Assembly (NCBI GenBank): GCA_026985515.1
Contig: JALSQH010000018.1
Coordinates: forward strand, 1 to 19,220
Length of the DNA: 19,220 nt
Direction: 5' to 3'
Origin: a bacterium
GTDB taxonomy: Bacteria > JALSQH01
The notes beneath the pieces are model-generated. The model did not search any database. It had not been told where the DNA came from and saw only the letters and a list, made by a program, of their open reading frames with translations. A program made the translations under genes and the position numbers. Below, one piece after another: positions 1 to 19,220 of this stretch. Within the stretch, counting starts at the first letter, position 1. Every line of letters begins with the position of its first letter.

Positions 1-1830
1 GAGTTTAAGAACTATCTCTTAAAGTACGGAAGCATAGAGGAAAAATTGAAAAAGTTTCTTCAGAGTCACAGGGATCTCCATAATTTTTACGAGGAAATTC
101 TGGTTAAGTCTGAAACAGCTCTTACAGGACTGCCTGTACCTGTGGATGTTCTTCTGCGGTTGAAGAAGAGCAGAAGAGTGAGAAAAAGTGAAGAGCTTTA
201 TGAGAAGATAAGCAGAATGCAGAAGGATCTTGAGGATATTTCCAAGAGGCTGGAAGAAGTTAAATTAATTGCTGAGAAATCTGGAAGGCAGGCCATAATC
301 CCAGGAACCATTTTCAGCCATAATAAAATAAAGCAGATCCTTTATACAATGAGAATGATTGAACTCAAGCTTCTTCAGTACAAAAAGGCAGAGATAATAA
401 ACGCGGTATCTCTTGAAGGTGCCAAGGTTCTGGGAGAGGTTTATGAATTGAGAAGACTTACTTCCTATCTTATGGATGTACTCGAAGAGTTGAGGAAAAA
501 AGTAGCAGAAAAAAGGAACGAGCTTCTCTCCATACTTGATTTTCTGACTGGAGTTTTGCCTCCAGATGTCATTTCGAAGTACGCCGCTGGAATAACCACG
601 GGTATCACCCCTGAACAGAAGAGATACCTTGCGGCAAAGGCGGAACTGGAGAGGGAATTGAAACAGCTGGAAAATATGAACCCTCTGATAGATTTCTATG
701 AAAATAGAGTTGCTTCAATGAGGGAAATGACCTTTACCATTGAAAAAAGGATAATGGATCATTTTGCAAGAAGGATAAGGTATCAGCGAAAAAAGTATTT
801 GAAAAAGATAGATGCGCTGCTTAAAAAAATTGAGTATCTCCGTAATCAGATTAATGTAATAAGACAGGAAATGGTAAGAAAGAAACTCCAGGCAATAGCC
901 AGAGTGAGAAAGGAAATAACGGAAAAGGAAAAAATACTTGCACAGTATATAAAAGCACTTGGAAGGTTAAAAAGGGAAGCTGATCAGATGAGGGGTAAGG
1001 TTGTGTATGCGGAGCTGGAAAATTTCAGAAAGATGATGGATTTTTACACAATGCAGGCTCATATGGGATTTATTGATATAAGCTGGAAGATAAAGGAGGA
1101 GAATGAAAAGAAGGTGAATAACCTGTATGAAGCTGAGGCAGATGAAATAAGCAGGGCTGAGAATTACTACAGCAATCTTCTTGCAGAGGCAAGAAAAAAA
1201 CCTGAGGTTAAATTAAAGCTCGGAGAGGGAGTTAATTTAAAACCTGTCAGTGTTGATGAACTTGATAAACTGGAGGAGAATCTTGACTTAAAGGATAGTC
1301 TTTACGGATTTGACTTCAGGGATGTTGGTAAAAAGGTTGCATCTGTGGAACAGAAAGTAGATAGTTACAGCAGGGTTATAACGACCCTCAAAGAATCTCC
1401 CTTTAATCCACTTAAGCCGGTAAAACTGAAAGCGGGTAAAAAGGAGAATGTTTATTTAAGATTACGCATAAGAGATAGAATGGGATGGCAGTACAGGTTG
1501 CAAAAAGTAGAGGCATTTATTGACGGATTTCTCCTCTTCCAGAATGATAGGGTGCAGGACCTACCTAATGCGAAGAATTTCATAGGCTTTGCAGGTATGA
1601 TTTTACCCGGGGAACACCATCTGGAACTCAAATTTTACTATAAAACGAGGGGTTTTCTCTTCTGGAAGCCTGCCAGGAAGAATCTCATAGTCAGAGAATC
1701 GTACGATTTTGATTGTGCGCCACATGACAATGTTTTCATCACATTTTCAATTGAAAAAGAGAAGGGTGCTCCGGAGGTAATTGAAGCATTTAAAAGAAAA
1801 AAGGCTTCTGTAAAGGAAGGAAAAAAATGA
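1..1830 (+). CDS. Large coiled-coil envelope protein with C-terminal beta domain, 5' end outside window
   Basis: The reading frame is open from the first base, so the N-terminus lies outside the window. The first possible start inside it (TTG at 46) has coding-like codons before it and is probably not the real start. About 609 residues are visible. Roughly the first 430 are highly charged Lys/Glu-rich helix with long coiled-coil character. The last ~150 change to a predicted beta-rich domain with a 'PGEHHLELKFYYKTRG' stretch near residue 540. That pattern recalls myxobacterial proteins often labelled 'dihydrolipoamide acetyltransferase' that lie beside glt-type TPR genes. The label is almost certainly wrong, because no lipoyl or acyltransferase motif is visible here. 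The gene overlaps the next by 4 bp (ATGA), suggesting translational coupling. A structural role in an envelope complex is inferred from context. Without the N-terminus, secretion cannot be judged. Confidence 0.85.
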   Translation, partial: EFKNYLLKYGSIEEKLKKFLQSHRDLHNFYEEILVKSETALTGLPVPVDVLLRLKKSRRVRKSEELYEKISRMQKDLEDISKRLEEVKLIAEKSGRQAIIPGTIFSHNKIKQILYTMRMIELKLLQYKKAEIINAVSLEGAKVLGEVYELRRLTSYLMDVLEELRKKVAEKRNELLSILDFLTGVLPPDVISKYAAGITTGITPEQKRYLAAKAELERELKQLENMNPLIDFYENRVASMREMTFTIEKRIMDHFARRIRYQRKKYLKKIDALLKKIEYLRNQINVIRQEMVRKKLQAIARVRKEITEKEKILAQYIKALGRLKREADQMRGKVVYAELENFRKMMDFYTMQAHMGFIDISWKIKEENEKKVNNLYEAEADEISRAENYYSNLLAEARKKPEVKLKLGEGVNLKPVSVDELDKLEENLDLKDSLYGFDFRDVGKKVASVEQKVDSYSRVITTLKESPFNPLKPVKLKAGKKENVYLRLRIRDRMGWQYRLQKVEAFIDGFLLFQNDRVQDLPNAKNFIGFAGMILPGEHHLELKFYYKTRGFLFWKPARKNLIVRESYDFDCAPHDNVFITFSIEKEKGAPEVIEAFKRKKASVKEGKK

Positions 1831-4800
1831 GAAGATTCAGATTATTCTTCCTTGCAGGAGTGCTGTTAATACTTTTTCCTGTCACAGTGATGGCAGACAA
1901 TATTCTCCTGGAGTATGAGACACTCATGAATGATCTCAAAGTCAGGGCAAAAATGCTTGAAAAGGAGTCTGATTGGCGGGAGAAAATGGTAGAGGAGTAT
2001 CTGAAAACCCGTCTCAAGAGAGATAAAGAGCTCATAGAGAGAAAATATAACAGGTTGATTGATCCCTTAAAGGAACAGGAAGTAAAACAGAGAAAGGAAT
2101 ACATAGCTACACTAAAGCTCTTTATTGCACGATATCCCAATGCAAAGGTAACCCCTGCCGCCATGCTGAGGCTTGCCGAACTTTATTACGAATATGATGG
2201 TGATCTTTATCTTCAGGCTATGAAGAGATATGAGAAACTTCTCGAACTTTACGATGCTGGCGTGATTGTGCAGAAGCCACTTTTGCCTAAGAAAGATTTT
2301 TCAAGGTCCATTGAACTTTATAAACAGGTGGTAACCAGATTTCCTCATCACAGGTTGCTTGATGTGGCCTATTATTTGATTGGCTACTGTTACGAAGAGA
2401 TGGGAGAGCCTCAGAAAGCCCTCGTAGCTTTTCAGAAGCTGATTGAGCTCAGACCTGACAGTGTTTTTGTCCCCGAAGCATATTTCAGAATAGGGGAGTA
2501 CTATTTTGACCCCCCCGGAGATGTACCACCAGATATTCCAAAGGCAATTTACAACTATAAGCAGGTGCTTAAATACAGGAATGAAACCAACCTCTACGAC
2601 AAGGCTCTTTACAAACTGGGATGGTCATACTACCGGTTAAATCAGTATCCCCTCTCAGTAACCTATTTTGTAAAAGTTGTTGATTATTACGAAAAAAGGA
2701 AAAAGGAAGGGATTCTTAAAAAGAAAGGAGCCTCAGATGTTTATAAAGAATCCCTCGATTACATTGCCATTAATTTTTCTGAATGGACGGGGCTGCAGGG
2801 TCTTATAGATTATTTCAAAAAAATTGGAGACCGCCCCTACGAGATATATGTTTTCAAAAAACTTGGAGATGTCTATTTTCAAAGAACCGAATATGATAAG
2901 GCACTCAAAGTCTACTATTATGTGTTGAAACGGTGGCCCATGGATATCTCAGCACTTGAGGTTCAGAAAAAGATAATGCAGTGTTACGAGAGAAAAAACG
3001 ATATTGAACATGCTGTGGAAGCAAGGGAAAAGCTGGTGACACTTTATGGTCCCGGTTCGGAATGGTATGAAAAAAACAAGGACAATCCCGCCCTTGAAAA
3101 AATTTCGAAAGAGATGACAGAGAAGATATTAATTGAGTACGCGACATTTCACCATGCAAGAGCTCAGGAGAAAAATGACCTCAGGGAATATCAGCTTGCT
3201 ATAGAGGGTTACAAAAAATTTCTTAAATTGTTTCCCTTCTCCCCGAGAACAGCAGAAGTTGAATTTTACATTGCAGAGATTTATTACTCCCTTGGTAAGT
3301 ATGAGGAGGCGGCAAAATATTATCTCCTTGTTACTCAGAATGTGGTAACAAGGGAGAATAAATATCTATCAGATGCTGCCTACAGCCTCGTTATGTGTTA
3401 CAATCAGATTCTTTCTCAGGAAAAGAAATTTATAATAGAGGAGGCGAAAAGGAAGTATCGTGAGCTTAAGCAGAGGGTTACGCCACCTCCTGTTACTTAC
3501 TCAACAGGGAACACTGCTCCCTCATCAGTATCAGCCACCACTATAAATAAGAGCTTGAAAAGTTTTTCTTTACCGGTATCTGCTCCAATATATGTGACTG
3601 CTACGGGAGAGAGGTTGTTTTTCACACTTCCCGCATCTCCACCGACAAAGGATGATGAGTGGCTTGCCTATGTTTCTTTTCCCAGAAGCGCTGACAGGCT
3701 TATAAAAACATGTAACTATTTTCTTAAACTTCTCCCCACTCACAAAAAAGCTCCTAAAATCATTTATATTGCGGGACAAACATATTTCACCTTTGGCAGA
3801 TATGATGATGCCCGTAATGAGTTGATGAAAGTTGTAGAGTATTATCCGCGAAACCCCCTTGCCAGGGAGGCTGTGAAAACAATTGTTTACAGTTATGTGA
3901 AACAGAAGAGGTATGATCTTCTTGCAAAGTGGGCAAAGGAAATTGAAAAGAGAGAAGAATTCTCTGATCCAGAAATGAAGAAGTTCTTCGCTGAAATTGT
4001 GGGAGGTGCCATTTTCAAAGAGGCAAGGGAAAAGGAAAAAAGTGCAAAAAATTACATAGAGGTTGCCAAAAAGTACCTCGAAATAGTAAAAAAGTATCCC
4101 AGATCCCCCATTGCATATAAAGCACTTTTTAACGCTGCAAAGGATTACGAAAAAGGTGGAGATCTCAACACTGCAATAGCCATATACAGGAGACTTATAA
4201 AGGAGTATCCCGGTAATGAATTGCTCCCGGCTGCATATTATCAGATAGCCTATGATTATGATACGATGCTGGATTTTGACAGAGCGATAAACGCCTATCT
4301 GACTATGGCAAAGAAGTTTCCAAAGGATCCTCTTGCAAAAGATGCCCTCAATAACGCTGCCTGGGCTCTCTACAGACTGGAGAGGTGGGAGGAAGCCGCA
4401 AATGTGTTTAAAATGTATGCCACCAGATATCCTCAGGATCCCTCTATCAGGGAGATTTTATGGAGAATTGGAGAATGTTACGAGAAGGCAGGCAAGTGGG
4501 ATGAGGCTTTAAAGTCATACAGATTTTATTTGAAAAAATATCCGGATGATTACGAGAAGGAAATGCTTGTTTATTACAAAATTGCCACACATTTTAAAGA
4601 GATTGGTGATACGAAGAACATGGAGAAGTATTACAAACTCATTCTCAAAAAATTTGCCGAATTGAGTAAAAAGGCTGGAAAACCTGTTGGAAATGCATAT
4701 GCCGCAGAGGCAAGTTTCTACTTTGCAATGAAGACATTTAAGGTATACCAGAGCATAAAACTGAAGCTTCCTCAGAAAGTGATGGCCAGGTTACTGGTTA

Positions 4801-5408
4801 AAAAGAAAAAAATGATGCCGGTAGTATTAAAGGCTTTTAAAAAGGTTATTGAGTACAAGGACCCCAACTGGAGTGTGGCAGCACTTTACATGATGGGGAG
4901 AACCTTTACAGAGTTTGCTGATACACTTTTCAATGCCCCAATTCCTGCCAACCTCACAGAGGAAGAGAAGGAGGTTTACAGAGAAGAGCTGGAAAATCTT
5001 GCCTATCCTCTCGAAGATCAGGCAAGTGCCTTTTATGAAAAATGCGTTGCCCTGGCTGAGGAAAAAAATATTGACAATAAATGGGTGAGGGAGGCAAGAA
5101 AAGCGGTCCATGAATTCAAACCTGAGGTACCTGTCTATGTATTGAAAGTAAAACCCGAGCCCGCCTTTGGTAAATTGTTTCCAATTTTCGGTTTCAGAAA
5201 AGTTGCTCTCAAGAAGAAAAAAAGAGCGGCTCCAGCCATTGTCTCTTTTGGAGGAATTAAGATAGATCCTCTGAATATCAGGGAATACAGAAAGTGGCAG
5301 GCTATTGACAGAACGAGAAAAACCATTACCTATTCTTCCACCATGGAGAAATTTATTATGAATGATCCTTTTTTAAGAGAATTGAGGAAAACAAGGGTTG
5401 AGCAGTGA
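1827..5408 (+). CDS. Exported giant TPR-repeat protein (GltD/AgmU-like role suggested)
   Basis: This 1193-residue protein starts with a clear signal peptide: basic RRFR, a hydrophobic core and a likely cleavage after VMA at about residue 23. Most of the rest is tetratricopeptide-type helical hairpins with recurring patterns such as 'YYLIGYCYEEMGEPQKALVAF', 'FYIAEIYYSLGKYEEAAKYY' and 'YYQIAYDYDTMLDFDRAINAY'. TPRs run from about residue 110 to 540 and again from about 630 to 1010. A Ser/Thr/Pro-rich linker (about 552-608) separates the arrays. The last ~90 residues are basic and non-repetitive. Start and stop overlap both neighbours by 4 bp (ATGA, GTGA). Size, secretion and position before a TPR lipoprotein resemble GltD (AgmU) of the Myxococcus Glt machine, a periplasmic TPR scaffold. 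The family call (TPR) is secure and the Glt equivalence is inferred. It could also be a generic YbgF/BamD-like scaffold. Confidence 0.93.
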   Translation: MRRFRLFFLAGVLLILFPVTVMADNILLEYETLMNDLKVRAKMLEKESDWREKMVEEYLKTRLKRDKELIERKYNRLIDPLKEQEVKQRKEYIATLKLFIARYPNAKVTPAAMLRLAELYYEYDGDLYLQAMKRYEKLLELYDAGVIVQKPLLPKKDFSRSIELYKQVVTRFPHHRLLDVAYYLIGYCYEEMGEPQKALVAFQKLIELRPDSVFVPEAYFRIGEYYFDPPGDVPPDIPKAIYNYKQVLKYRNETNLYDKALYKLGWSYYRLNQYPLSVTYFVKVVDYYEKRKKEGILKKKGASDVYKESLDYIAINFSEWTGLQGLIDYFKKIGDRPYEIYVFKKLGDVYFQRTEYDKALKVYYYVLKRWPMDISALEVQKKIMQCYERKNDIEHAVEAREKLVTLYGPGSEWYEKNKDNPALEKISKEMTEKILIEYATFHHARAQEKNDLREYQLAIEGYKKFLKLFPFSPRTAEVEFYIAEIYYSLGKYEEAAKYYLLVTQNVVTRENKYLSDAAYSLVMCYNQILSQEKKFIIEEAKRKYRELKQRVTPPPVTYSTGNTAPSSVSATTINKSLKSFSLPVSAPIYVTATGERLFFTLPASPPTKDDEWLAYVSFPRSADRLIKTCNYFLKLLPTHKKAPKIIYIAGQTYFTFGRYDDARNELMKVVEYYPRNPLAREAVKTIVYSYVKQKRYDLLAKWAKEIEKREEFSDPEMKKFFAEIVGGAIFKEAREKEKSAKNYIEVAKKYLEIVKKYPRSPIAYKALFNAAKDYEKGGDLNTAIAIYRRLIKEYPGNELLPAAYYQIAYDYDTMLDFDRAINAYLTMAKKFPKDPLAKDALNNAAWALYRLERWEEAANVFKMYATRYPQDPSIREILWRIGECYEKAGKWDEALKSYRFYLKKYPDDYEKEMLVYYKIATHFKEIGDTKNMEKYYKLILKKFAELSKKAGKPVGNAYAAEASFYFAMKTFKVYQSIKLKLPQKVMARLLVKKKKMMPVVLKAFKKVIEYKDPNWSVAALYMMGRTFTEFADTLFNAPIPANLTEEEKEVYREELENLAYPLEDQASAFYEKCVALAEEKNIDNKWVREARKAVHEFKPEVPVYVLKVKPEPAFGKLFPIFGFRKVALKKKKRAAPAIVSFGGIKIDPLNIREYRKWQAIDRTRKTITYSSTMEKFIMNDPFLRELRKTRVEQ

Positions 5409-7219
5409 GAAAAATTTTAACGTTGTTCATGCTTCTGATTGTGGTTTCATGTGCCACTTCCAGAGTGACGGAGAAGGGACCTTCTGCCGAAAAAAAAGAA
5501 AAGGCAAAAGTTGAAAAAAAGTTCAAAACAGTTGAAAAAGCAGAGAAGATTGAGATAAAGTACCCTGTAACGGAAGATATTAAAAACAGCGGAGATTACA
5601 AGAAATTTGAAGAGCTGATAGAACTCCTTCGAAAAGATCCAACTCTGGCGGATGCCCATTACGATATTGGAGTAATTTACAGCAGACATAAGGAATTTTC
5701 CCTCGCAGCAAAAGCGTATGAAGAAGCTCTGAAGATCAGACCGGATTATGTTGAGGCAGCTGTTAATCTTGCAGATGCATACAAAGAACTTGGCAGATAT
5801 GGTGCAGCAGAGGCCATCATAAAGAGAGTTTTACGAGAAAATCCAGATGACATAAGATTGCTGAATGCCCTGGCAATAATTTACAGGGAAAAAGGGAAAC
5901 TTGATGAATCCCTTGACCTCTCTCTAAAGGTTTTAAAAAAGGATCAGAAGTATCTACCAGCAAGAATTAACATTGGTCTCATATACCTGTTAAAGAAAAA
6001 GTATGCAATGGCATATTATGTTTTTGATACATCCAAGGATATTGATCCAAATAACCCTGCCATCCATGAATATAAGGGTTACACTCTCTATTTTCTGGGG
6101 GATCTTAAAGGGGCTGAGGAAGAATTCAAGAAAGCACTTAAGTTGAATCCCGGTAAGCCGGAGCTGTATGTTAATCTTGCAATAATCAGGATGAAGCAGG
6201 AAAAGTGGAATGAGGCTGAGAAGTTTTTGAAAAAAGCACTGAAAATAAAACCCCTGATGGGAGAGGCACATCTTGATCTTGGAGTTGTTTATCTAAAACT
6301 TGGTAAATTGAAGGAGGCTTACAGGGAACTGAAAAAGGCCATAAAGTATGGGGCGGATAAGGCTGCGGCGTATTACAACCTCGCTATTGTGGCTTCCCTT
6401 TACAGACGTAAACCAGACGTTGCGGCAAAAAAAGCTGTTGAGTATCTCCAGCTGTATTTGAAGTATGCGGTTAATATCTCTCCTGATGAGAGAAAGGAAG
6501 TCGAGGACCTTATCAAGGATATCAAGGAAATCGGAGTTGAAGTAGTTTACCTTTACAAACCGAAATTTTCTCAGCTTCCTCCATACGCAAGACCCAAAGA
6601 GGAAGGAGCTCCTCAGCTCGCTTCAGGTTACGGAAGTGAATCCACATCTCCTGCTTATTCAGGCTCCACAACCTATGCAACATCTACAACACAGTATACC
6701 TCATCCACGACTCAGCCTCCTTCACCTGCAACAACTGCAGTTTCTTCTTATGGTAAACCTGTTACTTCCCAGGCATCCGTAAGTGAAGGTGGGGGTAGAC
6801 CGGTAACTTCAACTGCTGAAAAGTATCCTGAAGTCGCCACAGCTTCTTCATTAAATAAAAAAAGTTCTTCACAACGGGAAAATTATCCCTCAGAAATAAC
6901 CGGTAAGGCTCCTCGCAGATTTCCAGAAACTCAAACTGCTCCATCCACTTCTCCTCTTCCAGTGACATCGGAAGGTGGTAAAGTAAAGCCTCCAGAGTCA
7001 ATGCAAAACAGTCAACCATCAATTCCGAAATCAGTGACATCATCTGTTGAAAGGGAAACAACAGCTTATCCTCAGGAAGTTTCCCCGGTGGGGGAAGCTC
7101 CTTCTGTTGAGGAGATTACTCCTGCTGAGGAATCTCCTGAGAGTGTGGAGGAGGCACCAGAGGTTACTTCTCCTGTGGAACCAGAGGAACCTGAGGAAAT
7201 ATCCCCGGAGGAACCATGA
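5405..7219 (+). CDS. TPR lipoprotein with Ser/Thr/Pro- and Glu/Pro-rich tail (GltE/AglT-like role suggested)
   Basis: Translation starts at GTG, overlapping the previous stop (GTGA). The N-terminus MRKILTLFMLLIVVSCATS is a lipoprotein signal with the lipidated Cys at residue 16. Alanine at +2 is compatible with outer-membrane sorting under the E. coli Lol rule. A Lys/Glu-rich stretch (25-75) leads into about eight TPRs (about 80-355) of textbook form, e.g. 'AHYDIGVIYSRHKEFSLAAK' and 'AHLDLGVVYLKLGKLKEAYR'. From about residue 385 the protein becomes low-complexity, rich in Ser, Thr, Pro, Gly and Tyr with recurring PVTS motifs. It ends in an acidic Glu/Pro tail. An outer-membrane TPR lipoprotein directly after an exported giant TPR protein resembles GltE (AglT), which partners GltD in Myxococcus. 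The long disordered tail could span the periplasm or lie at the surface. That is a guess. Confidence 0.93.
   Translation: MRKILTLFMLLIVVSCATSRVTEKGPSAEKKEKAKVEKKFKTVEKAEKIEIKYPVTEDIKNSGDYKKFEELIELLRKDPTLADAHYDIGVIYSRHKEFSLAAKAYEEALKIRPDYVEAAVNLADAYKELGRYGAAEAIIKRVLRENPDDIRLLNALAIIYREKGKLDESLDLSLKVLKKDQKYLPARINIGLIYLLKKKYAMAYYVFDTSKDIDPNNPAIHEYKGYTLYFLGDLKGAEEEFKKALKLNPGKPELYVNLAIIRMKQEKWNEAEKFLKKALKIKPLMGEAHLDLGVVYLKLGKLKEAYRELKKAIKYGADKAAAYYNLAIVASLYRRKPDVAAKKAVEYLQLYLKYAVNISPDERKEVEDLIKDIKEIGVEVVYLYKPKFSQLPPYARPKEEGAPQLASGYGSESTSPAYSGSTTYATSTTQYTSSTTQPPSPATTAVSSYGKPVTSQASVSEGGGRPVTSTAEKYPEVATASSLNKKSSSQRENYPSEITGKAPRRFPETQTAPSTSPLPVTSEGGKVKPPESMQNSQPSIPKSVTSSVERETTAYPQEVSPVGEAPSVEEITPAEESPESVEEAPEVTSPVEPEEPEEISPEEP
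7207..7211 (+). promoter_or_regulatory. Shine-Dalgarno-like GGAGG before a micro-ORF
   Basis: GGAGG ends four bases before the ATG at 7216. It also encodes Pro-Glu-Glu of the acidic lipoprotein tail, so it may be coincidental. Confidence 0.3.
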
Positions 7220-7287
7220 ATGTTGAAGATAAACTGGAGTTGTGTTTAAATGAATATGTAATTGAGGGGAGAGATGAAGGTTTTTAA
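7216..7287 (+). CDS. Possible 23-residue coupling micro-ORF
   Basis: The ATG overlaps the upstream lipoprotein stop as ATGA, the same junction style used between the earlier genes, and is preceded by GGAGG. The peptide (MNVEDKLELCLNEYVIEGRD followed by EGF) ends 14 bases inside the next gene, in another frame. No domain is recognisable. It may be translated only to carry ribosomes to the next start, or it may be an accident of the Glu/Pro-rich upstream codons. Low confidence. Confidence 0.22.
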   Translation: MNVEDKLELCLNEYVIEGRDEGF

Positions 7288-7552
7288 ATTTCTTTTAACA
7301 ACCTTGATATTTCTTCTGAGTTCGGCTATTATTGTAACAACTGTCAGAGCCCAGCAGGTGATAAGGATGGAAGAGATGATAGTAAAAGGAAGGGTTCAGA
7401 AGCCGCAGGCAATGTATATCCTCCAGAGGTCAACCCACGTTACATTTGAGACTTCCATTAAAAACAAGAGAGAGGATTTCAGACTTTATATTCTTGAAGC
7501 GATAAGAGAATATGATGATCTTTTTTCACCTGGTGCTGAAAGTAAAAAATAA
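7274..7552 (+). CDS. Small exported protein (GltF-like position)
   Basis: I place the start at ATG 7274, preceded by a purine-rich GAGGGGAG ribosome-binding site, rather than the TTG four codons upstream. The product is 92 residues. It has a signal peptide (MKVFKFLLTTLIFLLSSAII...) and a likely cleavage after VRA at about residue 26, leaving a mature protein of about 66 residues. The mature part begins with a conserved-looking 'EEMIVKGRVQKPQAMYILQR' segment followed by a charged helix. I recognise no named domain. The 'V(K/E)GRVQKP' style is reminiscent of small proteins beside AgmX/PglI-type genes in myxobacteria, but I cannot confirm homology. Its position between the TPR lipoprotein and the proton-channel subunit matches that of GltF in glt clusters, so a periplasmic accessory role is inferred. 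It ends 19 bp before the next gene. Confidence 0.8.
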   Translation: MKVFKFLLTTLIFLLSSAIIVTTVRAQQVIRMEEMIVKGRVQKPQAMYILQRSTHVTFETSIKNKREDFRLYILEAIREYDDLFSPGAESKK

Positions 7553-7571
7553 GTAAAGGAGGAGTAAGGAT

Positions 7572-8429
7572 ATGAAGCGGATCATTATGGTGGTTACACT
7601 CCTGTTGTTTCTGGCAGGAAGCGGGAATGTTTATGCCCGAAAGAGAGTTAAGAAACATAAAAAGACAAAACCCGCTGCTGCAAAGGTTGAGAAAAAAGCT
7701 GTTGCCAAGCCTGCTGCTCCACAGCCAGCCGCCGCTGCTCCCGCAACAACAGCTGCAGCTGCTCCCACGAAGAAAGAGGAGAGTATGAATCTATGGCAGT
7801 GGTTTATGGATAAGATGAATAAAGGTGGAACATTTATGTGGTTCATTCTCCTTGCAGGCTTATATGCAATTGGAGGCTCCATAGAAAGAACCTATGCCCT
7901 CTACTTTAAATATTCAATAAATGGAAAGGCTTTCTGGGAAATAATCAGAAAGCACGTTATGACCAACAACATAAGACAGGCTATTACCACCTGTGAGGCA
8001 AAATCTCAGGCGGCGCTGCCACAGATTCTAAAAGCTGCACTTGAAAGAGCTGATGGAACTGAGAGGGAGATTCAGGATGCTGTGGATGAAGCTGCTCTCG
8101 AGGTTGTACCAAAGCTTCAAAGAGGATTACCATTCCTCTCAATGATAGCTAATGTTTCAACACTCCTTGGTCTTCTGGGGACGATTCTTGGATTGATCCA
8201 GGCTTTCAGGAGCCTTGCCATTGCAACCAACCAGACACAGAAAAGCGTGATGCTTGCGCAGGGTATTTCCATAGCAATGTACACTACTGCTTTTGGATTG
8301 ATTGTTGCAATCCCAACATTGATAGTTTTTACCATCCTCCAGGCGAAGGCAAATGCAATTATGGAAGATATAGATCTCTACTCTGTAAAGCTTATTAATC
8401 TTCTTGTTGCAAAGAAAGGTGGGAAATAA
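7572..8429 (+). CDS. TolQ/ExbB/MotA-family proton-channel protein with extra exported N-terminus
   Basis: The last ~215 of 285 residues are a canonical TolQ/ExbB/MotA domain. TM1 is near residues 85-105. A cytoplasmic helical loop follows, with 'ALPQILKAALERADGTEREI' and 'VPKLQRGLPFLSMIANVSTL'. Then comes the hallmark 'TLLGLLGTILGLIQAFRSLA' (TM2) and a third TM at about 232-256. In the family this subunit forms a pentameric channel around an ExbD/TolR/MotB dimer and turns proton flow into motion. Unusually, a signal-like hydrophobic segment (residues 4-22) and a Lys/Ala/Pro-rich spacer (24-68) precede the domain. A canonical-length protein would begin near Met71. Strong AGGAGG upstream supports the annotated start. 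The closest role by context is AglR of the Myxococcus Agl-Glt motor. No ExbD/TolR gene is visible in the window. Confidence 0.95.
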   Translation: MKRIIMVVTLLLFLAGSGNVYARKRVKKHKKTKPAAAKVEKKAVAKPAAPQPAAAAPATTAAAAPTKKEESMNLWQWFMDKMNKGGTFMWFILLAGLYAIGGSIERTYALYFKYSINGKAFWEIIRKHVMTNNIRQAITTCEAKSQAALPQILKAALERADGTEREIQDAVDEAALEVVPKLQRGLPFLSMIANVSTLLGLLGTILGLIQAFRSLAIATNQTQKSVMLAQGISIAMYTTAFGLIVAIPTLIVFTILQAKANAIMEDIDLYSVKLINLLVAKKGGK

Positions 8430-8434
8430 AAAAT

Positions 8435-8465
8435 GGGAGATAGAGGGGGAAAAAGGGGTAAAGGG
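8435..8465 (+). promoter_or_regulatory. G-quadruplex-capable purine tract over a ribosome-binding site
   Basis: Four G-runs (8435-8437, 8445-8449, 8455-8458, 8463-8465) are separated by 7, 5 and 4 bases, meeting the usual G3+N1-7 rule on the coding strand. The last run includes the first G of the GTG start of the next gene, and the third run is its only good Shine-Dalgarno-like sequence. Folding in mRNA could block initiation. Alternatively this is only a strong purine-rich ribosome landing site. Confidence 0.4.
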
Positions 8466-9808
8466 TGCAGAGAACCGAGAGAGTATTAAAGGTTGCAGTT
8501 GTTCAGAATGACATTATAACCGGTGAATTTCTGCTCCGTGAAAGTGGCAAATTCACAGTAGGAACTGGTTTTAATGTTGATGTACATGTTAATGACGAGT
8601 CTCTGCCCCGAAAGACCACTTTTTTCTTTAAAAAGGGTCCAAGGTACGGGTTTGTAATTTTACCTGGAGCAAGGGGAAAAGTAGTTTCCGTTGAGGGACG
8701 GGTTTATACTCTGGACCAGCTTGTCAATTCAGAATTCTCAAGAATTGAGAGAGGTGCCCCTGTAGTTTATCTGGACAGGATCGAGAGGGGTAAAATCATT
8801 ATTGGTGACACCACATTCCTCTTCAAGTATATTGAATTGCCACCGCCTCCCAAACTTGATTTGCCTGCTCCCAAAAAGGACTGGAGATATCTTTCAATCC
8901 TGGCGGTCTCGCTTCTTATCCATGGAGCTTTGATGTACTATCTGGGAACGGCAAATGTAAAAACTACGGCACCTGAATCTCTGCAGGCGATTCCGGCGAG
9001 ATTTGCTAAGTTGATTGTTGAAAAGCCTCCAGAGAAGCCAAAGCCTCAGAAGGTAAAAAATCTCCCCATAAAGGCTCAAAAGGAGAAGGTTGGTGAAAAT
9101 AAAGGAAAGGTGCAGAAAACCAGACCTAAGGAAGAGGCTGGTGGAGGAACAAGCACAAGAAGGGCAAAGGCTGCCAGACCATCAAAAGCTGCACTCAGAA
9201 AGAAGGTCAGATCCGTGGGTGTCCTCGCTATTCTCACATCTAAAAGCGCAGGTGGAAGTGTGGCAGATGTTATAAGTGCAGGAGCCGGTGTCACCGGTGA
9301 TCTGGATAAGGTTTTATCTGAGGTTGGCGGTGTGGGTGTTGCGAAGAGTACAGCTGAAGTTCTTGCGGCTGCAAAGAGAAGAAGAGGTGCAGCTGCCGGG
9401 GGTGGCGCAGATATAGGCGAACTTGCCGTGGGACCGGGTGAGAGCATCGGGCTCGGGAAAAAGAAAGTGGTTAGAGTGAGAAGCAGAATATTGACCGGGG
9501 CTTTTGCAAGTCAGGGGTCACTTGATTCAAGAGTTATTGCAAGAGTTGTTAAACTGGGAATGGGTGGAATAAAGTACTGCTATGAAATGGGGTTAAAGAG
9601 AAATCCAAAACTTGCCGGAAAGGTGGTGGTGGAGTTTGTAATAGGTTCTGGAGGTAGAGTTAGAACAGCGAGAGTTACCTTTTCCTCACTTGGAGATAGG
9701 GAGGTGGAGAGTTGTATAGTGAGAAGAATATTGAGATTCAGATTCCCTCCTCCAAAAAATGGGAGTGTGAGAGTTTCCTATCCTTTTATTTTTACATCTG
9801 CAGGGTAA
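8465..9808 (+). CDS. FHA-like / TM / TonB-like protein with AgmX/PglI-type C-terminal domain (GltG-like)
   Basis: GTG 8465 is the only usable start, since an in-frame TAA lies two codons upstream. The 447 residues fall into four parts. An N-terminal FHA-like beta domain spans about 5-125. One membrane span lies at about 142-160 ('LSILAVSLLIHGALMYYLG'). A TonB-like Pro/Lys-rich then Gly/Ala-rich periplasmic linker covers about 180-345. The C-terminal TonB-type domain (about 354-447) has paired cysteines C372 ('KYCYEMGLKRNP') and C417 ('ESCIVRRILRF') and a 'RFPPPKNGSVRVSYPFIF' end. This is the pattern of the AgmX/PglI C-terminal (myxo_SS_tail) family. In Myxococcus GltG (PglI) has the same order and links the inner-membrane motor to periplasmic partners. 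The FHA-like domain has lost the usual phosphothreonine contacts (GT at 33-34 for GR, P48 for Ser, T51 for His). Directly follows the TolQ-like gene. Confidence 0.92.
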   Translation: MQRTERVLKVAVVQNDIITGEFLLRESGKFTVGTGFNVDVHVNDESLPRKTTFFFKKGPRYGFVILPGARGKVVSVEGRVYTLDQLVNSEFSRIERGAPVVYLDRIERGKIIIGDTTFLFKYIELPPPPKLDLPAPKKDWRYLSILAVSLLIHGALMYYLGTANVKTTAPESLQAIPARFAKLIVEKPPEKPKPQKVKNLPIKAQKEKVGENKGKVQKTRPKEEAGGGTSTRRAKAARPSKAALRKKVRSVGVLAILTSKSAGGSVADVISAGAGVTGDLDKVLSEVGGVGVAKSTAEVLAAAKRRRGAAAGGGADIGELAVGPGESIGLGKKKVVRVRSRILTGAFASQGSLDSRVIARVVKLGMGGIKYCYEMGLKRNPKLAGKVVVEFVIGSGGRVRTARVTFSSLGDREVESCIVRRILRFRFPPPKNGSVRVSYPFIFTSAG

Positions 9809-9815
9809 AACAGGC

Positions 9816-9837
9816 TTCTGTGACTCCGGTCACAGAA
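9816..9837 (+). terminator. Perfect 9-bp hairpin at operon end
   Basis: TTCTGTGAC and GTCACAGAA flank a four-base TCCG loop, beginning eight bases after the stop of the TonB-like gene. It sits between two apparent operons, so it may be a terminator, 3'-end stabiliser or operator. It lacks the U-run of a classic intrinsic terminator, so the terminator call is tentative. Confidence 0.5.
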
Positions 9838-9843
9838 ATGGCT

Positions 9844-9897: not shown

Positions 9898-10431
9898 ATG
9901 TTTTGCAGAGTAAAAAACATACTTTTGATAGCATTTCTGGCTGGTTTTGCAGTGGTTGCATTTGCCCAGGGGAAGGTCCTTCCAAGACCTGAATTGCTGG
10001 CAAAATACAAAACTCTGCTCGGGACTGCATCTGATCAGATTTCCAAAATGAAAAAGATGGAAGATGACGCAAGAGAGCAGAATGATATGGTTGTGGTGAA
10101 CTGCATTCATCCCAAATATGTGACTGCCAGGAGACTGCTGGAAATTGCAAAAAAAAGTTATGATAGACTTCAGACCCTTGGAGCCAGGGGCGGGGAGGGA
10201 GTCTCAGTTGAGGTGATAAACAGCATTACAAGAAAAATCAAGCTCGCCTGTGACAGAATTGCTGATCTTTACAGGGCTGCACAATCCTGTTTGAGTATCT
10301 CCGCCGCCAAAGCGATAACAAAGGTCAAGATACTTCAGGGTCAGGAGCTGCTTCCGGGGAAAAAGGAAATAGGAATCACAACAGAAATCCCTGCGAAAGT
10401 GGAAACTCCACCACCATCAGGAAGCGAATAG
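9898..10431 (+). CDS. Exported helical protein with three cysteines, export-locus accessory
   Basis: ATG 9898 is preceded by GGAGG at good spacing (7 bases). The 177-residue product has a signal peptide with likely cleavage after AFA at about residue 23. The mature part is mainly helical and ends in a Pro/Ser-rich tail. Three cysteines stand out: C69 in 'VVNCIHPKYVTARRLL', C118 in 'KLACDRIADL' and C131 in 'AAQSCLS'. I recall similar small proteins with an N-terminal 'CxxxK' and a C-terminal 'CI/CL' beside outer-membrane porin and Wza-like genes in deltaproteobacterial exopolysaccharide clusters. They have no established name that I know. By position it is likely a periplasmic accessory of the beta-barrel encoded next. 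Function unknown. First gene of the second operon, 20 bp before the barrel gene. Confidence 0.85.
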   Translation: MFCRVKNILLIAFLAGFAVVAFAQGKVLPRPELLAKYKTLLGTASDQISKMKKMEDDAREQNDMVVVNCIHPKYVTARRLLEIAKKSYDRLQTLGARGGEGVSVEVINSITRKIKLACDRIADLYRAAQSCLSISAAKAITKVKILQGQELLPGKKEIGITTEIPAKVETPPPSGSE

Positions 10432-10451: not shown

Positions 10452-11594
10452 ATTAAAAGGATAATTGCAGGGGTAGTTTTATTCATTTTTTTTGCTGTGT
10501 GTAATCTGTTTGCATCTGGAAAGGGCATTCGTGCAGGAATACTTCGTATAAAGCCGACACTCCAGCTGGATACCGGTTATGAAAGCAATGTTTATCTTAC
10601 CTATGAGTCTGGATCGCCGGGGGATTTTTTTGTCAGTCCTTTTGTTGAATTGAAGATTGTGCTTCCATTTCTGACTCATTCCTTTTCTTTTGGTGTTAAC
10701 TACAGCTACATAAATTATTTTCACGAAAAGAAACAGAGTGGATCGAGTTATAATTTTTTTGGTGACCTTGATATGAACTTTATTGGTGGGTTATCCTTCG
10801 ACATTGCAGAGAAATACTCATATACAGAGGAGCCCATCCTTGGGAATTACGAGGTCGTATCCAGCAGATTACCTCACAATACTAACACACTTTCACCCTC
10901 AATAATATATAAAATTCCATCTGGAGCAATAACTTCAAGGTTTAATTTTCAGTGGATTCTGGATTCTTTCCCGACTCAGCCCGATTATGACAGAACGATG
11001 TATAAATTCAATCTTGGTACAGTTTATCGATTTCTTCCCAAAACAGGTCTATATTTTGACCTCAATATAATAAATGTGGGCAAAAAGAACAACGGTGGCA
11101 TTTCCTCAACAAAATATGGTGGTGAGATAGGTTTAAAGGGGTTGATAACCCCCAGGCTTTCGGCCACAGCAGGCTTTGGATGGAAGTATGGTGAATATTC
11201 CGATGGGTCCCTTGAAAATGAACCAGTAATCAGGCTTTCACTTGAAGAGAGATTTTCGCAGATTATGAAGATGAGTCTGAGTTACCTGAGGATGACAAAT
11301 GATTCTTTTATAAGCGACTTTTATGTGTTGAATATGGTTAAGCTTTCCCTGTGGAGGGCTTTAACTGCCACCATAGCCACTGACATTACGCTTAAATGGT
11401 GGCTTGTGGATTATTCACCTTCTACTCAGAAAGATAACAATTACAATGCAAAAGTTTCTATTAATTATTCGCCAGCGGTTGCCACATGGTTGAGCGGGAC
11501 CTTCTCATATGTTTTCAGCAAAAGAGATTCAAATGTTGAGGCCTTCAGATATACCGATCATAAGATCTTTCTCGGTGTAAAACTCTCCTGGTAG
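10452..11594 (+). CDS. Outer-membrane beta-barrel protein, probable polysaccharide porin, ATT start
   Basis: The frame becomes open after TAA 10449-10451. Reading from ATT 10452 gives (M)KRIIAGVVLFIFFAVCNLF followed by ASGKG, a perfect signal peptide. The first conventional start, GTG 10497, would delete nearly all of it. With the ATT start the protein has 380 residues. It shows alternating hydrophobic and polar beta strands rich in aromatic residues (e.g. 'SFSFGVNYSYINYF', 'RLSLEERFSQIMKMSLSYL', 'AKVSINYSPAVATWLSGTFS') and ends in a C-terminal aromatic (KLSW), typical of Bam-inserted barrels. It resembles the 'putative beta-barrel porin 2' type found in exopolysaccharide loci. In Myxococcus such barrels (EpsX/Wzp type) are thought to form the outer-membrane exit for polymers. 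The Wza-like gene follows after 6 bp. The barrel call is strong. The porin role is inferred. Confidence 0.87.
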   Translation: MKRIIAGVVLFIFFAVCNLFASGKGIRAGILRIKPTLQLDTGYESNVYLTYESGSPGDFFVSPFVELKIVLPFLTHSFSFGVNYSYINYFHEKKQSGSSYNFFGDLDMNFIGGLSFDIAEKYSYTEEPILGNYEVVSSRLPHNTNTLSPSIIYKIPSGAITSRFNFQWILDSFPTQPDYDRTMYKFNLGTVYRFLPKTGLYFDLNIINVGKKNNGGISSTKYGGEIGLKGLITPRLSATAGFGWKYGEYSDGSLENEPVIRLSLEERFSQIMKMSLSYLRMTNDSFISDFYVLNMVKLSLWRALTATIATDITLKWWLVDYSPSTQKDNNYNAKVSINYSPAVATWLSGTFSYVFSKRDSNVEAFRYTDHKIFLGVKLSW

Positions 11595-12463: not shown

Positions 12464-14554
12464 ATGGAAAATAATGAAGCTGTTGTTGATTTAAAGCAAC
12501 TTATCGAGATTATAAAGCGCAAGAGAAACTATGTGGCAGGGTTCTTCCTGCTATCGCTTTTTCTCGCTCTGCTTTATATTTTTCACACCACTCCCCAGTA
12601 TCGGGCTGTTGCCACCCTTCTGATAAAACTTGAACCTCCCAAACTTCTCCCCCTGCACAGTGCAGCTGATCTTCAGACCACAGATTACTGGTTTGCCAAG
12701 GATTACTACAATACGCAGATAAAAATAATTAAGAGTGCAAAGGTGGCACAGAAGGTTATAGAAAAACTTGATCTTCGTGATCCCCATGATCCCTCAAAGT
12801 ATGTTGATCCTGGCTATATCATTGGGAAGATTAAGGTTGTCCCCATTGAAGATACCCAGCTTGTTAGAATTGTTGTGGATGATCCCGATCCCAAAAAGGC
12901 CGCAAAGATCGCCAACGCGGTGGCTGAGGCCTATTCCGAATTCAATGTGGAGGAGAGAGTAAAACTTGCAGAATCAGCTGTTGAATGGCTGAGTAAGAGA
13001 CTTGAGGATATGAAGAAAACATTGAGGGAATCTCAGGAAAAACTCTTCAGATTCAGGCGTGATAATGACATTATATCCATTGAAAATCAGGAAAATGTTC
13101 TTGCTCAGAAACTTGAAGTTGTTAACAAGAATTATATTCAGGCGAAGGCTGATAGAGCTGCAAAGGAAGCGAGGTACAGATATCTCCAGTCCCTTCTTAG
13201 AAGTAACAACGATGTTCTCAAGTATACATCTATCTTTGATGATCCAGTTCTGGAGAAAATGAGATCTGACCTTGTTGCTGCCCAGGAAGAGAGGGTGAAG
13301 CTTTCAAAAATATTCTCTGAAAATCATCCAAAGATCATGTCTCTTGATAATCAGATAAATTTTATAAAGAAAAAGATGAGGGAAGAGATCTTCAAAATGC
13401 TGGAAAAGGCAAGAGTTGATTATGAGATAGCCATCCAGAGGGAGAAAAAACTTAAGAGTCTCCTGGATGAGTATAAAAAGGAAGTTTTTGACCTCAATCA
13501 GAAGATGATTCAGTATTCTTCACTTTTTCAGGATGTGGAAAAAAACAAAAAGCTTTATGATCTCCTTCTTGAAAAGTTGAAGGAAAACGATATAGCCAGG
13601 CATTTGAAGGAAAATAATGTTTCAATTGTTGAGTATGCGAGAGTACCAAAGGCACCATTCAAGCCAAAGAAATCTATCATTCTATTGCTTTCCATAATTA
13701 TGGGGTTGATGGGAGGTGTGGGACTTGCTCTTGCAGTTGATTATTTTGATAACACAGTTAAGGGGAGGGAGGATGTGGAGAATTACATTAAATTGCCGCT
13801 CATCGGGTATGTGCCTGCCCTGATGCCAGAGGAAGCCGAAGTAGTGAAAAAAGATCTCTTTACCTTTTACCATCCCAAATCGTCAATTTCTGAACAGATC
13901 AGATCCATAAGAACTGCCATTCTTTTCATGTCCGCTGATCATCCTTTAAAAACCATTCTTGTTACCAGTTCCATCCCCCTTGAAGGCAAGTCCACCATTG
14001 TGGCAAATCTTGGAGTTACCATGGCTCTGAATGGTGCACGCACCCTCATAATAGATGCTGATCTCAGAAGAGGGAGATTGCACAAAACATTTTCACTTGA
14101 TGGAAGGAAGGGTTTGACAAATCTGATCCTTGGTCAGTTTGAACCGGAAGAGACAATTTTCAAAACAAACATAGAAAACCTATGGTTCCTGCCCAGTGGA
14201 CCGTTCCCTCCAAATCCTGCTGAATTGCTGGGATCATCAAGGATGAATGAACTCATAAAACAACTTGAGGGTAAATTTGACAGGATTCTCATTGACTCGC
14301 CACCCGTGATGCCTGTTACCGATCCCATTGTTCTGAGCAAGATAGTGGATGGTGTGATTATTGTTGCAAAATTGGGAAAGGTAACAAGAGAGATGGTTAA
14401 TCACACAAAAGAGAAACTCAATGGAGTGGGGGCAAATATTCTTGGAATAATTCTCAATGAACTTGAACTCAAGAAGAAAAGCTACGGGTACTATTATAGT
14501 TATTCTTACTCCTACTATTATCACTCCCCTGAGGAAGATACCTCTGCCAGATGA
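12464..14554 (+). CDS. Wzc-like polysaccharide co-polymerase / bacterial tyrosine kinase
   Basis: The 696 residues match the Wzz plus BY-kinase fusion typical of Proteobacteria. TM1 is at about 26-42, inside a Wzz domain. A long periplasmic coiled coil spans about 165-370, with the GNVR-like 'VSIVEYARVPKAPFKPKK' just before TM2 (about 405-425). The cytoplasmic kinase follows: Walker A 'SIPLEGKSTIVANLG' with G508-K509-S510, Walker A' 'LIIDADLRRG' (D531, D533) and Walker B 'ILIDSPPV' (D611). The C-terminus has nine tyrosines between 674 and 686, the usual autophosphorylation cluster, here alternating with serine. In the family, cycles of phosphorylation control polymer length and export with Wza. 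Walker A has Leu where many relatives have Gly (PLEGKS versus PGEGKS), though Wzc itself varies here. GAGG precedes the start. The stop overlaps truA as ATGA. Confidence 0.95.
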   Translation: MENNEAVVDLKQLIEIIKRKRNYVAGFFLLSLFLALLYIFHTTPQYRAVATLLIKLEPPKLLPLHSAADLQTTDYWFAKDYYNTQIKIIKSAKVAQKVIEKLDLRDPHDPSKYVDPGYIIGKIKVVPIEDTQLVRIVVDDPDPKKAAKIANAVAEAYSEFNVEERVKLAESAVEWLSKRLEDMKKTLRESQEKLFRFRRDNDIISIENQENVLAQKLEVVNKNYIQAKADRAAKEARYRYLQSLLRSNNDVLKYTSIFDDPVLEKMRSDLVAAQEERVKLSKIFSENHPKIMSLDNQINFIKKKMREEIFKMLEKARVDYEIAIQREKKLKSLLDEYKKEVFDLNQKMIQYSSLFQDVEKNKKLYDLLLEKLKENDIARHLKENNVSIVEYARVPKAPFKPKKSIILLLSIIMGLMGGVGLALAVDYFDNTVKGREDVENYIKLPLIGYVPALMPEEAEVVKKDLFTFYHPKSSISEQIRSIRTAILFMSADHPLKTILVTSSIPLEGKSTIVANLGVTMALNGARTLIIDADLRRGRLHKTFSLDGRKGLTNLILGQFEPEETIFKTNIENLWFLPSGPFPPNPAELLGSSRMNELIKQLEGKFDRILIDSPPVMPVTDPIVLSKIVDGVIIVAKLGKVTREMVNHTKEKLNGVGANILGIILNELELKKKSYGYYYSYSYSYYYHSPEEDTSAR

Positions 14555-18439: not shown

Positions 18440-19220
18440 TCACTCCATGAGGTGTTTGAAATACTCCCTGTTTATTTTCCTGTAGGGATGGGGGAATCCC
18501 TCTTCCAGTGATTTTATAATCTCTTTTCTTTTTTCAGTGTATCCTCTGGATGGGGGAGGGATCTTGATTTTTTCTTCTGAGGGCCTGCCAGAAGTTTCTC
18601 CATAACCACCTCTTTTAGCCACCCCTTTTCTGTAAACTTCTCTCTCCTTTTCAAGCTCTTTTCTACTTTCTTTCATCGCATTTATTGCTTCATCAAGCCA
18701 GAACTGAGCCTTTTTTTCACTTTCATATCCTTTGAAGGTATTCTCTTTTTCAATTCTCTGGTATGCTTCATTCATCTTTTCCCTGCTCCTGCTCACAAAA
18801 TCAACGCTTTTTCCAGCAAGGTGTGGATATTTTGTTGCAATATCTCTCAGTTGCCTCTCTATCTCCCCTGTTCTTTTTTCAAATCTTCTGTTTTCCCTCT
18901 CGAAAAATTTTACACTGCTACTGTTCTGTATATCTTTTATTTCCCTTTCAGTCTGATCTATTTTCCGCAGCATATCATCTATGTCATATCTGTTTACATC
19001 GGGATATCTCTTTAACTCTTTTAGAAGTTTTTTCAAATCACTCAGATTGTTTTCCGTTTTTATCTTCTGTATCCTTTTCGAAATGGGGGGTGAGTAGAGA
19101 TAAAAGGAAGGTATGCTTAAATTCATCTCGTCCAGAATCCTTTTGATCATGTTTCTTATTCTTTTTGAGGCAGATTTTGAAATCTTCCGGTTGTAGCGGT
19201 GAAGAGACGCCAGGTACTTT
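18440..19220 (-). CDS. Charged coiled-coil protein of unknown function, 5' end outside window
   Basis: The minus-strand frame from the stop at 18440 stays open to the right edge. The ATG at 19150 is preceded in frame by coding-like residues ('YLASLHRYNRKISKSASKRI'), so the real start probably lies outside the window. About 260 residues are visible. They are mostly Lys/Glu/Arg-rich helix with coiled-coil character (e.g. 'ENRRFEKRTGEIERQLRDIA'). A short Gly/Pro break follows, then a C-terminal 'YTEKRKEIIKSLEEGFPHPY...INREYF' segment. That ending recalls the C-terminus of large DUF4175-type membrane proteins of Myxococcota and relatives, but I cannot verify it. No catalytic motif seen. Plus-strand frames through this region give hydrophobic, Cys/Ser/Phe-rich products typical of shadows. 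The gene is convergent with, and probably unrelated in regulation to, the rest. Confidence 0.75.
   Translation of the reverse strand, partial: KYLASLHRYNRKISKSASKRIRNMIKRILDEMNLSIPSFYLYSPPISKRIQKIKTENNLSDLKKLLKELKRYPDVNRYDIDDMLRKIDQTEREIKDIQNSSSVKFFERENRRFEKRTGEIERQLRDIATKYPHLAGKSVDFVSRSREKMNEAYQRIEKENTFKGYESEKKAQFWLDEAINAMKESRKELEKEREVYRKGVAKRGGYGETSGRPSEEKIKIPPPSRGYTEKRKEIIKSLEEGFPHPYRKINREYFKHLME

Follow-up and report, generated by a model that had tools for sequence, protein, structure and literature searches.

What work does a Glt/Agl-type trans-envelope machine, akin to that of Myxococcus xanthus gliding, perform when its genes stand in one block with genes for polysaccharide export? 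The question is raised by contig JALSQH010000018.1 (19,220 bp, analysed in full and hereafter the window), from the 2.36-Mb, 97.6%-complete assembly GCA_026985515.1 of a bacterium of lineage JALSQH01, whose phylum is represented in our collection by two genomes, its own and another of the same family (G001). GC content of the window (0.41) is that of other contigs in the same genome. Reading frames over the whole window show that the six genes which an initial annotation had assembled into an operon at 1–9808 are all present, co-directional and nearly contiguous, but that the + strand block continues to 14554 with genes for a 177-aa secreted protein, a BBP2-type barrel, Wza and Wzc; as the window is an entire contig (C18), the upstream (5′) end of the block is missing. 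The adjoining polysaccharide-export genes, overlooked in that annotation, are the best clue to function. From sequence comparisons we consider it probable that the block specifies a proton-driven machine of the core/G4 Glt-Agl lineage which, together with its own outer-membrane polysaccharide export (OPX) outlet, handles exported polysaccharide.

Kinship to Glt/Agl, as initially proposed, is borne out by profile matches, well past what chance would give, for GltE, GltF, AglR and GltG (Table 1), and the gene order is that of M. xanthus, with the AglR-type gene between those for GltF and GltG. By sequence, GltD, GltF and GltG are closest to the Myxococcaceae cluster G4 and not to the gliding cluster G1. 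Window GltD and G4 GltD are reciprocal best matches (in M. xanthus AM003, best match on contig C76, E 2e-84; next paralogue, 2e-43), and GltF and GltG have their best matches in the G4 equivalents of Citreicoccus. GltF, which PMC3169522 places among the Group A genes found only in Myxococcales and Bdellovibrionales, has the motif GRIQKPQ..YILxRSN in common with GltF of Myxococcaceae and others. GltE and GltG score 124 and 183 bits against the gliding equivalog models, far below the cut-offs of 225 and 650, compared with 746 for M. xanthus G1 GltE and 1033 for Citreicoccus G1 GltG; GltE was rejected as a guide to which paralogue this is, since TPR similarity does not tell them apart. AglR matches its M. 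xanthus counterparts in motors M1 (E 3e-34) and M2 (5e-34). An FHA domain, initially ascribed to GltG, is not detectable in its sequence, but the predicted structure does match FHA folds at the N-terminus and TonB at the C-terminus (Foldseek); the usual FHA phospho-binding residues (G-R, S-x-x-H) are not evident.

The coiled-coil protein at the cut end occupies GltC's place in the cluster order and is likely GltC/NfsC-related. Its family (profile matches in G015, Myxococcaceae, G233 and G095) combines TPR and coiled coil and aligns with the NfsC family in hhalign (100%, E 7e-40), over a TPR-rich region that lies outside the window fragment, TPR matches being promiscuous. A search for its missing N-terminus elsewhere in the genome returned generic TPR proteins only. 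Its C-terminal β domain (about 1276–1827) matches a secreted protein which other clusters encode separately, upstream of the coiled coil (E mostly 1e-28 to 6e-60, iterated search); structure prediction for this domain was of low confidence (pLDDT 57) and gave no significant fold match.

Contig C76 of M. xanthus AM003 carries mglB, mglA, a β-domain protein, a coiled coil, GltD and GltE, and ends before wzaB. From the adjacent mglBA and its locus numbers we equate C76 with the G4 cluster of PMC3169522 (MXAN_1922), the only paper that a literature search, with subscription papers mostly outside its coverage, found for six MXAN numbers of this region. M. xanthus G4 sits between mglBA and the 'orphan' wzpB-wzaB (MXAN_1916/1915), its adjacency to wzaB being read from other Myxococcaceae and MXAN numbering; although 'orphan-like', wzaB and its barrel MXAN_1916 are part of the BPS pathway (PMC7310880, PMC9603273). 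In a GltD tree built from profile-aligned columns (Fibrobacterota GltD, too partial, were left out), a 100/100 split separates a gliding/sporulation (Glt/Nfs) clade from a core/export clade (clade B), where the window falls with G4. Within the tree set, Wza is present in 10/33 core/export clusters, a lower bound owing to contig ends, versus 0/22 gliding/sporulation clusters (Fisher p 0.004, with rows that are not independent), and the export-linked rows of clade B are spread over three subclades.

Named relatives were covered by one scan of genome contigs and others by genome searches with fetched neighbourhoods; profiles from the window and relatives, run over these loci, gave a linkage map. 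The full block, β-domain protein–coiled coil–GltD–GltE–GltF–AglR–AglQ–AglS–GltG–177-aa type or similar–barrel–Wza–Wzc, occurs in G317 (locus L153) and in G233, G363 and G095 (L147, L160, L158). It extends through Wza in G130 and G266 (L154, L155) and runs from a truncated GltD to Wzc in G036 (L054). The Myxococcota (L055, L064, L066–L070, L081, L088) have it without AglRQS and with Wza in place, and the Fibrobacterota (L071, L074, L096, L113) have the variant AglR–AglQ–AglS–GltG–Wza–Wzc, with GltF ahead in two loci and no barrel match. The window has the block minus AglQ and AglS, with the β domain fused to the coiled coil. A Glt core followed by Wza, mostly with barrel and Wzc, is counted in several lineages, among them Myxococcota, Fibrobacterota and the window's phylum. 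The 177-aa and barrel families are both confined to export-linked loci; a weak relative of the former follows GltG on contig C97 of the window genome. The proton-channel subunit inside the cluster, which the initial annotation had stressed, is present but not special in itself: it is usual in this branch, and clustered core genes including aglRQS were reported outside Deltaproteobacteria and in Geobacter (Luciano 2011, PMC3169522). What is unusual here is the absence of AglQ and AglS from the cluster.

These ExbD-type partners are absent from the window, and in this genome we found copies of them on C97 alone, in GltF–AglR–AglQ–AglS–GltG plus a 180-aa protein, the sole AglR–AglQ–AglS set; the further ExbB/ExbD pairs on C10 and C68 are of a type other than AglQ/S. 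A cluster resembling C97, GltF–AglRQS–GltG, occurs in L061 (RFIY01000055, labelled Candidatus Dadabacteria). In M. xanthus M1 AglQ, the motif SINLTAFIDLM puts Asp at position 28 (numbering from the MAGG start), and D28N stops the machine (PMC3858216). C97 AglQ has Asn in place of D28, and C97 AglS retains its Asp. Across the aligned set the AglQ D28 column holds Asn in 32 rows and Asp in 8 (two M. xanthus motors, Bdellovibrionota L097, L101 and L107, and L156, L099 and L163), and AglS keeps Asp in 40/40. The Asn, usually followed by Pro (MNL..xLIP; for example L016, 6706–7287), is conserved over most of the core/export clade, residue and clade agreeing imperfectly: L163 (Asp) is in this clade, and L059/L176 and L173 (Asn) are near or in the other. 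Where AglQ has Asn, a single ExbD-type subunit of the two is left to carry the proton, which argues for a heterodimer or an AglS homodimer. The change was not found in the literature searched. Window AglR has about 75 extra residues at its N-terminus (7572–7800), a signal-like segment and a K/P/A-rich linker before the usual TolQ fold, which most relatives are without; a good ribosome-binding site, GGAGGAG, precedes this long start closely.

On the export side, the window OPX protein ends after its second SLBB domain, to judge from its sequence without a C-terminal outer-membrane helix, and the barrel gene lies directly upstream. Short OPX proteins pair with barrels (PMC9603273, PMC9601211), and this arrangement fits a composite OPX/β-barrel translocon (PMC9601211). 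The barrel (stretch 10452–10497) probably starts at a rare ATT (10452), preceded by a GGAGGGG site and opening the signal peptide IKRIIAGVVLFIFFAVCNLFA, which a start at the first ATG/GTG/TTG would truncate. A strong hairpin precedes the export genes, with no clear U-run on the + strand; it is terminator-like on the − strand, where no gene was recognised, and is possibly a terminator or attenuator. Given its place between gltG and the 177-aa gene, the block may form two transcription units.

We infer that AglR, with AglQ and AglS supplied in trans from C97, would form a proton-driven inner-membrane stator driving GltG, whose TonB-like periplasmic arm would act on a TPR scaffold of GltD, GltE and the coiled-coil protein, with GltF. 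At the outer membrane the scaffold would act on polysaccharide leaving through a Wzc–Wza–barrel conduit, and the work done could be export, compaction or surface movement of the polymer, on the pattern of Agl-Nfs, which moves Exo, the spore-coat polymer of M. xanthus; AglR binds both GltG and NfsG in two-hybrid assays (PMC3858216). The polysaccharide function is proposed because of the recurrent adjacency to a whole polymer outlet, the BPS role of wzaB, the pairing of short OPX proteins with barrels and the Agl-Nfs precedent, which together suggest that in this branch the machine's load, moved or exported, is polysaccharide and not the cell. Several points weigh against it. In M. xanthus, NfsD does not co-localise with the foci of Exo export (PMC3858216), so that contact between the two machines is no necessity; supply in trans is assumed, AglQ and AglS not being in the window; the hairpin stands between gltG and the export genes; the window yielded no recognisable Wzx or Wzy; and the many clusters of an AglR-linked subclade of clade B have no export genes in the stretches read.

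The last of these points, with the hairpin, would suit a view of the two halves as mere neighbours, Glt serving Tol-Pal-like envelope maintenance and the export genes an unrelated polymer. We think this improbable, since lineages with long branches between them keep the two halves side by side and in one order, 177-aa protein and barrel included, and Fibrobacterota retain AglRQS–GltG–Wza–Wzc while other genes differ. A gliding machine, in which the polysaccharide genes would supply slime and the motor would be under MglA/MglB control, as it is in M. xanthus, is no better placed. The window does resemble the M. xanthus gliding machine (G1/G2/M1), having homologues of its GltD-E-F-G, in unchanged order, and of its AglR, slime aids Glt adhesion (PMC7310880), and Myxococcaceae G4 directly follows mglBA. 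The genome also has a polarity module, MglA (75% identical to M. xanthus MglA) adjoining MglB at the end of contig C48 and oriented to read into a cluster like the window's. Yet window GltD lies outside the gliding clade (100/100), its GltF and GltG likewise match G4 rather than G1, GltE and GltG fall under the gliding cut-offs, no G1-type N-terminal FHA is seen by sequence, and the GltJ model is matched by C-terminal tails only (three places in the genome). Moreover, the C97 AglQ has the very residue, Asn for Asp28, that stops the M. xanthus machine, and G4 gltD mutants move normally (PMC3169522). The suspicion in the initial annotation that this is an ancestral or divergent version whose job may not be gliding agrees with the G4 partners, the clade and these scores. 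That the copy in the window is a paralogue in decay, its AglR and GltG idle without AglQ/AglS and the work done by the C97 cluster with the second GltD–GltE pair on C27, is very unlikely, its frames being all intact and tightly spaced, motor genes acting in trans in M. xanthus too (PMC3169522) and export genes occurring, among the Glt copies read in the genome, only here.

Other genes of the same genome touch on these systems. In joining C48 to the 5′ end of the window no exact overlap was found, and the junction remains a suggestion. On C48 (L142, G000:C48, 1–643), MglB–MglA follow 2-oxoacid:ferredoxin oxidoreductase-like genes and precede the start of an unassigned gene (ATGCAGAAAGTG), and a second MglA-like GTPase (59%), extended at its C-terminus by a long acidic stretch, is encoded on C93 (L143, G000:C93, 2024–3064). 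C223 encodes a TPR protein with a PglI tail; a TPR lipoprotein with a PglI/AgmX tail (L017, 2191–4323; also in G001, L051) places a TonB-like tail on an exported protein. Downstream of Wzc in the window are truA, a response-regulator/DUF4388/TPR protein and a PilZ protein, then a minus-strand coiled-coil protein (18440–19219) with no Pfam match, truncated by the contig end.

Table 1. Genes and hairpin of the Glt/Agl–export block in the window.
Feature	Position	Strand	Evidence or remark
Coiled-coil protein, C-terminal part (MXAN_1923-like), with fused β domain	1..1830	+	5′ side cut by contig end; profile matches
GltD-type giant periplasmic TPR protein, 1193 aa	1827..5408	+	M. xanthus G4 best match; reciprocal best; tree
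GltE-type TPR lipoprotein, 604 aa, long S/T/P-rich tail	5405..7219	+	NCBIfam GltE 6.8e-36
GltF-type small exported protein	7274..7552	+	CglF/GltF model 8e-4; GRIQKPQ..YILxRSN motif
AglR-type MotA/TolQ/ExbB proton-channel subunit	7572..8429	+	PF01618 (MotA/ExbB) 2.3e-28
GltG-type protein: cytoplasmic FHA-like fold, one transmembrane segment, disordered linker, periplasmic TonB/PglI C-terminal domain	8465..9808	+	NF033760 (GltG) 7.2e-54, NF033768 (PglI tail) 2.8e-30
Hairpin, ten pairs, between gltG and 177-aa gene	9815..9838	+	folding z -4.7
177-aa secreted helical protein	9898..10431	+	family confined to export-linked loci
Outer-membrane β barrel (BBP2_2; Wzp-like porin)	10452..11594	+	PF10082 2.6e-11
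OPX polysaccharide export protein (Wza type), 284 aa	11601..12455	+	Poly_export 3.2e-25, SLBB 2.9e-26
Wzc-type polysaccharide co-polymerase/BY tyrosine kinase, Tyr-rich tail	12464..14554	+	GNVR 3.7e-17, Wzz 1.8e-10, eps_fam kinase 3e-61

Set beside known systems, the window shares with M. xanthus G4 the coiled-coil and β-domain proteins flanking GltD; the succession of 177-aa protein, barrel and Wza it shares with relatives among the Myxococcaceae. The myxobacterial cluster, unlike the window, is without AglR and keeps the β-domain and coiled-coil genes separate, whereas in the window these are fused and Wzc belongs to the block. As in the Glt/Agl core complex (Group B, PMC3169522), GltD, GltE and GltG are clustered with AglR and a coiled coil stands where GltC does, but GltF is present, AglQ/S are not in the cluster and polysaccharide-export genes are attached. 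The machine proposed here is like M. xanthus Nfs with Exo in that a Glt-type scaffold acts on exported polysaccharide under the AglRQS motor (PMC3858216); Nfs differs in its GltD clade and in having nfsABC, and no Wza lies beside the nfs-type clusters read.

The core complex was reported in 2011 without an assigned function (PMC3169522), and we found no paper stating a link of Glt to Wza/OPX export, subscription papers being mostly outside our coverage. Tentatively, and with the balance still somewhat against it, we suggest that the Glt/Agl core was anciently a proton-driven polysaccharide handler coupled to OPX export, with a one-Asp AglQ/AglS heterodimer in its stator, and that gliding and spore-coat rotation came later, in a clade that left the export genes behind and whose motors have an Asp in each ExbD subunit. 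The naturally occurring Asn in place of Asp in AglQ is relevant to a question raised in PMC9389320, that of hetero- versus homodimers of AglQ and AglS. Altogether, the adjacency conserved over distant lineages offers one answer to two hitherto separate puzzles, the G4 copy and the orphan wzaB: both may belong to a machine for exported polysaccharide, driven by the proton-motive force.

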